Below, one piece after another: positions 62,317 to 64,000 of a stretch of DNA of 64,000 nucleotides. Each line of letters opens with the position of its first letter. The first letter of the stretch is position 1. The translations under genes and the position numbers were made by a program. Below the pieces are notes generated by a model that did no database searches, was not told where the DNA came from, and saw only the letters and a program-made list of their open reading frames with translations. The stretch lies in assembly GCF_000482705.1 (NCBI RefSeq), contig NZ_AXWO01000014.1:62001-126000 (forward strand), in the 5' to 3' direction. This stretch comes from Glycomyces arizonensis DSM 44726. GTDB lineage: Bacteria; Actinomycetota; Actinomycetes; Mycobacteriales; Micromonosporaceae.

Positions 62317-63633
62317 ATGACCGAGAACCCGTCCCGTCCCGCCGATGAGGTCGTCGAGATCGCCCGCGATCTCATCCGCATCGACACCACCAACACCGGC
62401 GACCACGCGACCTCAAAAGGGGAGCGCGCCGCCGCCGAGTACGTCGCCGAGAAGCTCGCCGAGGTGGGCCTCGAACCGAAGATCTACGAGTCCCTGCCCG
62501 GCCGCGCCTCCGTCGCCGCCCGCTACCCGGGCGCCGACCCGAACCGCGGGGCCCTGCTGCTGCACGGCCACCTCGACGTCGTCCCCGCCGAGGCCGACGA
62601 GTGGAGCGTCGACCCCTTCGGCGGCGAGATCTCAGGCGGCTACCTGTGGGGCCGCGGCGCGGTCGACATGAAGGACTTCGACGCGATGCTCCTGGCCGTC
62701 GTCCGCGGCTGGCGCCGCGCGGGGAAGGTCCCGCCGCGCGACCTGGTCCTGCTGTTCACCGCCGACGAGGAGGCCGGTTCCGACCACGGCGCCCGCTTCA
62801 TGGTCGAGGAGCACCCAGAGGTGTTCGACGGGGTCACCGAGGCGATCGGCGAGGTCGGCGGCTTCTCCATGACGCTCGAGAACGACCTGCGCGTCTACGT
62901 TGTCCAGACCGCCGAGAAGGGCCTGGACTGGCTGCGCCTGCGCGCCGCCGGGCGCCCCGGCCACGGCTCGATGCTCCACGACGACAACGCCGTCACGCGC
63001 CTGAGCAGGGCCGTCGCCAACATCGGCCAGCACGACTTCCCGGTCGAGATGACGCCGACGGTGCGCCAGTTCCTCGAATCGGTCTCCGAGCTGACCGGCG
63101 TCGAGTTCGACCCGAACAACCCGGACGAGACGGTCGCGAAGCTCGGCCCGGTCGCGCGCCTGGTGGGCGCGACGCTGCGCAACACCGCGAACCCGACCCG
63201 CCTGAACGCCGGCTACAAGACCAACGTCATCCCGTCCTCGGCCGAGGCCGTCCTCGACTGCCGGTCGCTGCCGGGCCGCAACGACGAGCTCGAGGCGAAG
63301 CTGCGCGAGCTGGCGGGCGAGGGCATCGACTTCGACTACGAGATCCGCCAGGCCGGTATCGAGACCTCCTTCGACGGCCCGCTGGTCGACGCGATGGCCG
63401 AGGCGATCCGCCTGTCCGACCCGGGCGCCAGGACCGTCCCGTACATGCTCTCGGGCGGCACCGACGCGAAGGCCTTCGCGTCGATCGGGATCCGCTGCTT
63501 CGGCTTCGCGCCGCTGAAGCTCCCCGCCGACCTGGACTTCACCGCGCTCTTCCACGGCATCGACGAGCGCGTCCCGATCGAGGGCCTCCAGTTCGGCGTC
63601 ACCGTCATGCACCGTTTCCTTTCGCAGTGCTGA
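62317..63633 (+). CDS. M20 family zinc metallopeptidase, second copy
   Basis: 438 residues, closely similar to the M20 enzyme at 7961-9295. Shared motifs: LIRIDTTN, HGHLDVVPAEADEWSVDPFGG, GRGAVDMKDFDAM, TADEEAGSDHGA, NPTRLNAGYKTNVIP and SGGTDAKAF. It has Met-Lys-Asp after the bridging Asp where the other has Met-Lys-Gly. There is no ribosome site; TAGAAA lies 6 bases before the ATG, so it may be leaderless. It stands alone, unlike the operon copy. Confidence 0.9.
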   Translation: MTENPSRPADEVVEIARDLIRIDTTNTGDHATSKGERAAAEYVAEKLAEVGLEPKIYESLPGRASVAARYPGADPNRGALLLHGHLDVVPAEADEWSVDPFGGEISGGYLWGRGAVDMKDFDAMLLAVVRGWRRAGKVPPRDLVLLFTADEEAGSDHGARFMVEEHPEVFDGVTEAIGEVGGFSMTLENDLRVYVVQTAEKGLDWLRLRAAGRPGHGSMLHDDNAVTRLSRAVANIGQHDFPVEMTPTVRQFLESVSELTGVEFDPNNPDETVAKLGPVARLVGATLRNTANPTRLNAGYKTNVIPSSAEAVLDCRSLPGRNDELEAKLRELAGEGIDFDYEIRQAGIETSFDGPLVDAMAEAIRLSDPGARTVPYMLSGGTDAKAFASIGIRCFGFAPLKLPADLDFTALFHGIDERVPIEGLQFGVTVMHRFLSQC

Positions 63634-63660
63634 CTCTCGCAGAGCTGAACGACTGACCTC

Positions 63661-63694
63661 GGCGGGGGTGGTGAGCATGCTCACCACCCCCGCC
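63661..63694 (+). terminator. Palindromic terminator after the second M20 gene
   Basis: Perfect 34-base palindrome (arms 63661-63677 and 63678-63694), 27 bases after the stop; as RNA it would form a long hairpin with a tiny loop. It also isolates the following ABC-F promoter. Confidence 0.8.
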
Positions 63695-63706
63695 GCACTC
63701 GCCCTC

Positions 63707-63736
63707 TGGACAGGACCCCGCAGCATCCCTTAGCCT
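63707..63736 (+). promoter_or_regulatory. Candidate promoter of the ABC-F leader
   Basis: TGGACA (63707-63712) and TAGCCT (63731-63736) with 18-base spacing. The expected transcription start falls at or next to the leader ATG at 63744, so the leader peptide would be translated from a leaderless message. Confidence 0.55.
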
Positions 63737-63743
63737 CTTAGGC

Positions 63744-63764
63744 ATGTGGCTTTACTTCATTTAG
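63744..63764 (+). CDS. Hexapeptide leader MWLYFI
   Basis: ATG-TGG-CTT-TAC-TTC-ATT-TAG encodes MWLYFI. Codons CTT and ATT and stop TAG are unlike the GC-rich host. The peptide is close in length and makeup to MYLIFM, the MsrD leader that stalls ribosomes with macrolides. It lies 147 bases before the ABC-F start. Likely an attenuator peptide. Confidence 0.6.
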   Translation: MWLYFI

Positions 63765-63911
63765 CGGCCTACAGGGCATCGCGTCGAGCACCGCTCCGTG
63801 AACCCATGCGGCACCGCGCGCCACAGTCTCCTGTCTCTTCATGACCGTGCTTCCGCGTGCGCGCCGCTTCTCCCGTCCCCACACCGTGACCGGCTGCTGC
63901 CTGGAGGCGCC

Positions 63912-64000
63912 TTGCTCCACCGCACTCAACTGTCCATTGCAGAAATCACTAAGCGCTACGGCGACAACCTCGTCCTCGACCGGGTCTCCTTCACCGTCAA
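63912..64000 (+). CDS. ABC-F ATPase, 5' part only
   Basis: The first 29 codons run off the window edge. From TTG at 63912, preceded by GGAGG 4 bases upstream, the frame reads L-L-H-R-T-Q then LSIAEITKRYGDNLVLDRVSFTV. This is the opening strand of an ABC-F ATPase, the family including OleB, TlrC, LmrC and MsrD that protects ribosomes from antibiotics. TGGAG (63902-63906) can pair with CTCCA (63915-63919) across the ribosome site and TTG, a possible weak sequestering hairpin. The Walker motifs lie outside the window. Confidence 0.7.
   Translation, partial: MLHRTQLSIAEITKRYGDNLVLDRVSFTV

Follow-up and report, generated by a model that had tools for sequence, protein, structure and literature searches.

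The window analysed here, a stretch of 64,000 nucleotides (62001-126000 of contig C10), comes from a soil bacterium with a genome of 5.05 Mb and 72% GC whose relatives are Glycomyces species. At its far end, downstream of an M20-type peptidase-like gene, lie the following features:

63661..63694, no strand assigned: inverted repeat GGCGGGGGTGGTGAGCATGCTCACCACCCCCGCC with core GGTGAGCNNNCTCACC, read directly from the sequence, between the peptidase-like upstream gene and the promoter
63707..63712, + strand: -35 element TGGACA; 18 of the 19 leader-bearing Glycomyces orthologues have TGGAC- or a near variant, the remaining one (L017) TTTACA
63731..63736, + strand: -10 element TAGCCT; TATAGT, TACAAT, TATAAT and others in orthologues
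63744..63764, + strand: leaderless leader ORF MWLYFI, ATGTGGCTTTACTTCATTTAG; a hydrophobic ORF of 5-6 codons stands at the same place in 19 of 20 orthologues
63755..63769, + strand: 5' arm of helix P1 (CTTCA and TAGCGGCC), comprising the last leader codons, the stop and the next bases; predicted anti-Shine-Dalgarno in the minimum free energy fold
63779..63801, + strand: hairpin P2, UCGCG-UC-GAGC-ACC-GCUC-CGUGA; core invariant across families, outer pairs covarying
63892..63906, + strand: predicted 3' arm of P1 (GGCTGCTG and TGGAG), overlapping the ABC-F Shine-Dalgarno
63903..63907, + strand: Shine-Dalgarno (SD) GGAGG of the ABC-F gene, conserved in orthologues
63912..64000, + strand: start of the ARE4-type ABC-F gene (TTG start, 540 aa), which ends beyond the window at G000:C10:127534

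The promoter claimed in the sequence-only reading (TGGACA-18-TAGCCT) was located with both boxes and its 18-nt spacer, and 7 nt separate the -10 box from the leader ATG. From this geometry, transcription is predicted to start at or within one base of the A of that ATG. A generic sigma-70 scan called 0 promoters at the window locus, which is explained by the weakness of the -10 box; TAGCCT is further from TATAAT than most orthologous -10 boxes are. The leader reads ATG TGG CTT TAC TTC ATT TAG, i.e., the six-codon MWLYFI ORF described earlier, and its stop lies 147 nt before the TTG at 63912, the distance also given before. Its codons had been called atypical for the genome, and two are indeed rare, CTT accounting for 2.1% of Leu and ATT for 2.8% of Ile codons in the genome's long ORFs.

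The ABC-F gene, said to run off the window's edge, does extend past it; recovered whole (L009:412-2034), it is intact. Its product is a full-length, two-domain protein of 540 aa that passes NF000355, the ribosomal-protection-like ABC-F equivalog (424.2 bits against a cut-off of 380). By far the best NCBIfam profile is NF000171 (TlrC/CarA/OleB/SrmB) at 758.4 bits; since this lies below the cut-off of 800 for that curated model, we describe the protein, by its sequence, as closest to ARE4 (TlrC/CarA/OleB/SrmB) rather than as a certified member. Relatives on Streptomyces plasmids are annotated TlrC/CarA/OleB/SrmB, and TlrC and other ARE4 members act against macrolides and streptogramin B (PMC10201436). 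Judged by profile and annotation, the nearest relatives are self-resistance proteins of macrolide producers, so that an inducer of the macrolide type is, by analogy, plausible.

The core pattern of the inverted repeat at 63661..63694 occurs once genome-wide and its region is kept in orthologous loci; the repeat may terminate transcription of the upstream gene or serve as an operator. Within it, the palindrome GGTGAGCATGCTCACC (63670-63685) likewise has one copy in the whole genome. Its region is kept between upstream gene and promoter in most Glycomyces orthologues, with flanking arms that differ in sequence, and its core is altered in L019, the locus that also lacks promoter and leader. The palindrome may be an operator, not solely a terminator.

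Conservation of the leader within and beyond Glycomyces

The ABC-F orthologue is present in 20 of 22 Glycomyces genomes. A comparison of the leader across related genomes had been proposed, and it shows the leader ORF to be kept: by eye, a leaderless ORF of 5-6 codons follows the promoter directly, 138-184 nt before the gene, in 19 of the 20 orthologues, and a mechanical scan scored the promoter-plus-leader layout in 18. This layout consists of TGGAC- or a near variant, a spacer of 17-18 nt (17 in one orthologue), a TA(T/C)NNT-like box and 7-8 nt to the ORF. The peptides (MWLYFI, MWLYLR, MWLYFR, MLIYFL, MLIYFS, MLIFL, MMIFL, MLIFFL, MLIFFS, MLIFFF, MLLYFL) have gained and lost whole codons with the frame intact; at codon 3, ATT/ATC and CTT/CTC alternate, and the stop codon is UAG everywhere except in L012 (UGA). 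A conserved, translated uORF upstream of the resistance gene is a defining feature of ribosome-mediated ABC-F attenuators; the leader has the conservation, in 19 of 20 orthologues with in-frame codon indels, and is predicted to be translated.

The exception is L019 (G. dulcitolivorans contig; G006:C104:5478-7094), where promoter and leader have been lost together and the SD is retained. This is a natural loss of the two as one block, and the ABC-F gene there may be read constitutively from the upstream peptidase gene. The leader is missing, too, from L030, a diverged second copy, and no such leader was found in nine scanned upstream stretches of a second, 36%-identical Glycomyces ABC-F group.

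For a wider sample, upstream stretches of ARE4-type genes were taken from family, order and class sets (n = 110 loci) and scanned mechanically for a -35 box, a -10 box and a leaderless ORF no longer than 20 codons. A promoter with leaderless uORF precedes 59 of the 110 genes across Actinomycetes, compared to 1.6% of shuffles, and the same scan returned 0/274 blocks of the same window and 2/316 blocks of unrelated loci; additional cases outside the mechanical scan were recognized by eye. On the ABC-F tree the peptides form clade-specific types: MGTL../MGSL.. (several families), MRLY.. (one group), MGIFFTL, MLYFL, MALMFL/MAIFFL and MGxIDTIARPxx. Aromatic residues make up 33% of the 56 distinct leader peptides and aliphatic ones another 33%, as against 5% and 20%, respectively, in other short ORFs of the same stretches; Leu is the last residue in 35 of the 56. 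Short ORFs are frequent, and with its weak -10 box and no sigma-70 score the window leader might by itself pass for an ordinary short ORF after a promoter-like sequence. That the leader is conserved, in 19/20 orthologues and class-wide, against controls of 0/274 and 2/316, refutes this reading, to which we give a negligible probability.

Some loci of the wider sample carry other elements. ARE4 genes without uORF tend to have tandem GAGACGNNNCGTCTC-type repeats at the promoter (L040, L047, L051, L054, L092, L111, L127, L129, L131, L132), and the uORF-bearing L176, L178 and L206 have them as well. By eye, these tandem GAGACG..CGTCTC repeats resemble repressor operators, and in sequence ARE4 genes look like having two control modes, uORF and putative operator repeats, used alone or combined. 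A leaderless leader of another kind, MGxIDTIARPxx, stands before the ARE4 genes of L057, L061 and L064, which come from other genera within the same family; it has an R-P-R/W end and is reminiscent of the +x+ macrolide arrest motif. Another ARE4 clade (L065-L069, L071) has, about 80 nt before the gene, a minimal ORF of the ATG-CTC/ATC-CGG-TGA type (MLR, MIR, MLL) that recalls the three-codon uORFs of other ABC-F genes.

The predicted P1 helix and P2 hairpin

In Glycomyces, the leader's last codons, its stop and the next bases are predicted to pair with the ABC-F SD and the bases ahead of it (P1). The arms are TAGCGGCC with GGCTGCTG in the window, CCTTTAGAAAGCAG with CTGCTTTCTGGAGG in L023 and GGCCGATCG with CGATCGGCC in L021. 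True arm pairs outbind swapped ones, with 6 of 20,000 permutations as good when related loci are treated as independent. In 17 of 19 Glycomyces leaders, GGAGG is predicted to pair with the leader region at a probability of about 0.5 or higher, and the value is low in L021 and in L012, which is without P1; the window helix is among the weaker ones, its SD-leader pairing of 0.50 being close to that of shuffled leaders (0.47). Such pairing is likewise predicted in several other clades. In the MRL.. and MGxIDTIARP.. clades the modelled SD is generally unpaired with the leader, so the read-out is predicted to differ there.

When the leader was masked in silico, mean SD opening was 0.04 for the free RNA, 0.15 with a ribosome at the leader end and 0.23 with a ribosome at the start codon. 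This opening is modest because the GC-rich RNA finds other weak, non-conserved partners that replace the leader, and since masking opens the SD only partly, the structural read-out is, on this modelling, the least secure step of the model. The overall folding energy of the leader RNA is not unusual (z -1.2), and folding energy alone was thus set aside as support.

The P2 hairpin is common to many ARE4 leaders, with the bulged consensus GCGU(A/C/U)GAGC nnn GCUCCGC lying 9-31 nt after the uORF stop. Its core is nearly unvarying across families with unrelated leader peptides, and its outer pairs covary: 24 double changes were counted, which none of 500 shuffles matched and slid registers approached with at most 7. 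By eye, the MRL.. clade seems to retain both strands with a longer intervening loop. A covariance model spanning the uORF to P2 (R1), run on 346 genomes, gave strong hits solely before ARE4 ABC-F genes, three of those loci lying outside training; of the weaker matches, under about 31 bits, those inspected lay inside coding sequence. MGSL together with P2 also occurs in four plasmid loci outside training, and an Rfam cmscan of eight loci gave only sub-threshold chance hits and no matching family. Our guess is that P2 may serve as a pause hairpin or be bound by a protein; for a B. subtilis methylase gene, pausing of RNA polymerase has been reported together with tylosin-dependent stalling (PMC6851288). 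Two further uses of P2 were discarded. The core alone is no diagnostic, being genome-wide no commoner than its reversed control across the class and specific only in uORF context, and pairing of its CUCC strand with the SD in the stalled state had a share of at most 0.03 in the eight cases examined.

Comparison with known attenuators

In the translational attenuation of ermC, macrolide stalling on the leader ErmCL relieves sequestration of the SD. ErmCL is longer than the Glycomyces leaders, is not leaderless and stands before a methylase gene (the ermC system is also described in PMC10219788). The leader of streptococcal msrD, MsrDL, is the hexapeptide MYLIFM. Erythromycin makes it stall at its stop codon, for which L3 and I4 are essential, and Y2 is the one residue that could be changed to alanine without weakening MsrDL (PMC10314930). 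The likeness lies in a six-residue hydrophobic leader just before a macrolide-type ABC-F gene. MYLIFM and MWLYFI have M-x-L-x-F-hydrophobic in common, MYLIFM shares L-I-F with MLIFL and MLIFFL, and MLIFL equals MYLIFM minus Y2 with L for the last M. However, MWLYFI keeps L3 and F5 but has Y4, not I4, and so departs from the sequence that defines the MsrDL family, and the intrinsic U-tract terminator that overlaps the leader in MsrDL was not found here within 62800-64000. MsrDL also has its own ribosome-binding site, lies behind mefA, is read out through an intrinsic terminator and prefers a UAA stop, whereas the Glycomyces leader is leaderless, contributes its last codons to a predicted anti-SD and usually ends in UAG. 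We regard it as an apt analogy that the leader would work like MsrDL, and claim no family membership. Tylosin and spiramycin do not stall MsrDL (PMC10314930), so that system cannot tell which drug would induce here.

Among actinobacteria, attenuation of ABC-F resistance genes through a uORF is already known from are5sc and tiaA of Streptomyces (uORFs MLV and MVGDDDISG; PMC12421871) and from lmrC. The are5sc and tiaA genes differ in belonging to the ARE5 subfamily, in having uORFs with ribosome binding sites and other peptides, and in responding to lincosamide, streptogramin A and pleuromutilin drugs with a stall at the start codon (PMC12421871). In Firmicutes, a drug stall on the tiny uORFs of CplR and VmlR (MRI; MIN) frees a sequestered ABC-F SD, for cplR as the translational part of its control, and these systems differ in their poly-U terminator hairpin, three-codon uORF, other drugs and lack of P2 (PMC10201436).

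Candidate mechanism, alternatives and meaning

Beside the gene identity, the conservation of promoter, uORF, P1 and P2, and the ARE4 specificity found by computation, we consider it likely that the leader controls an ARE4-type ABC-F ribosome-protection gene as a ribosome-stalling attenuator, in which a drug stall turns translation on. For the transcript 5' end, drug-dependent stalling, the macrolide inducer, translational control and the role of P2, we infer the following course. RNA polymerase would begin transcription at the leader ATG or no more than one base from it, and a ribosome would begin at the mRNA 5' end without a Shine-Dalgarno. In the absence of drug it would read the 5-6 codons and depart, upon which the leader end, stop and following bases would pair with the ABC-F SD region (P1) and shut translation of the gene. 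If the exit tunnel held a drug, with a macrolide as the likeliest candidate, the short hydrophobic nascent peptide would meet it and the ribosome would stall at the leader end; the stalled ribosome would cover the P1 5' arm, release the ABC-F SD and allow the protection protein to be made. P2, just downstream, would probably be a pause or spacing element. The earlier suggestion that the aromatic hexapeptide senses a drug and induces the ABC-F gene gains support, at the level of sequence, from conservation, in-frame codon indels and ARE4 identity. Its further suggestion, that this follows the same logic as MsrD, stands for the likeness to MYLIFM and is less well borne out for the terminator read-out, there being no U-tract terminator and the leader codons being predicted to pair with the SD.

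Transcription attenuation as in MsrD would have the stalled ribosome block a U-less or Rho-dependent terminator, with P2 as a polymerase pause hairpin coupling translation and transcription. MsrD, VmlR and related ABC-F genes use such control (PMC10314930, PMC10201436), terminator/anti-terminator forms have been proposed for Streptomyces ABC-F leaders (PMC12421871), P2 sits just 3' of the uORF in many clades, a useful spot for a pause hairpin, and the SD of the MRL.. clade is generally unpaired with the leader. Against it, a terminator scan of 62800-64000 returned no terminator-like site and no U-tract intrinsic terminator, and in Glycomyces, as in several other clades, the predicted and conserved long-range helix has the SD at its far end. 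For these two reasons our model favours translational over transcriptional control, and we judge the transcriptional alternative unlikely, if the most serious of those weighed here. It is less probable again that anti-SD pairing (UUCCUC encodes F-L) accounts for most of the aromatic, Leu/Phe-rich makeup, such that any slowing of the ribosome would work and the peptide would be no sensor. As this would predict, many orthologues have TTC CTC TAG as the P1 5' arm, and Leu ends 35 of the 56 leaders, but codons 2-3 of the MLI.. leaders, though mostly unpaired, still encode hydrophobic residues (L/M/W, then I/L) and vary synonymously (ATT/ATC, CTT/CTC), and the MRL.. clade retains ..YFFL/..YIFL ends though its SD is generally unpaired with the leader.

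A sensor of aminoacyl-tRNA shortage (Trp, Leu, Tyr, Phe), instead of a drug or in addition to one, has a precedent in the wblC/whiB7 uORF, which responds to drugs and amino-acid starvation (PMC12421871), and the leaders are rich in L, F and Y, MWLYFI having a Trp codon as well. However, no amino acid is common to all leaders (MGSL, MRLI, MALMFL, MGIFFTL), the sole common theme being a short hydrophobic peptide before a ribosome-protection gene, and we rate this explanation as very improbable. Macrolide-resistance E-peptides are of the MRLFV type. With 4-8 residues, and with MRLYFFL, MLIFL and MRLTFL resembling the E-peptide consensus, the leader peptides might act directly in the same way, helping the drug off the ribosome, their link to ABC-F being additive and not regulatory; this would leave P1, P2 and the fixed position before ARE4 ABC-F genes unexplained, and is the faintest prospect of these four.

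ABC-F attenuators as such are known, Streptomyces included (ARE5: MLV, MVGDDDISG; PMC12421871). As far as the literature searched shows, ARE4 attenuators across Actinomycetes, with leaderless uORFs, leader codons as predicted anti-SD and an ARE4-specific hairpin, appear from the sequences to be new, a class-wide variant of ribosome-stalling attenuators. Our literature search, whose reach ended before the older subscription papers on tlrC, carA, srmB and oleB, found no description of a conserved leader for ARE4 genes, no match for tlrC with attenuation and no relevant paper joining leaderless and ABC-F. The standard finder uORF4u includes a Shine-Dalgarno search within 20 nt of the uORF (PMC10219788), and leaderless leaders could therefore be missed.

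More tentatively, and with rather more doubt than belief, the whole may be an undescribed class-wide drug-sensing RNA of Actinomycetes, in which a peptide with a 5'-terminal AUG/GTG would be made through 70S-type initiation, its codons would serve as anti-SD and P2 (GCGU-N-GAGC/GCUCCGC) would be a specific binding or pausing site. If this were true, the mechanism would include leaderless initiation, and the clade peptides (MGTL.., MRLY.., MLIF.., MGIFFTL) would mark different macrolide specificities. The leader set offers dozens of natural peptides of 4-8 residues for context-specific macrolide stalling, allows leaderless initiation to be examined directly as a component of a regulatory switch, and includes a sequence-conserved hairpin. 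The ARE4 ABC-F proteins that it precedes confer self-resistance on macrolide producers and probably form a reservoir of ribosome-protection genes.
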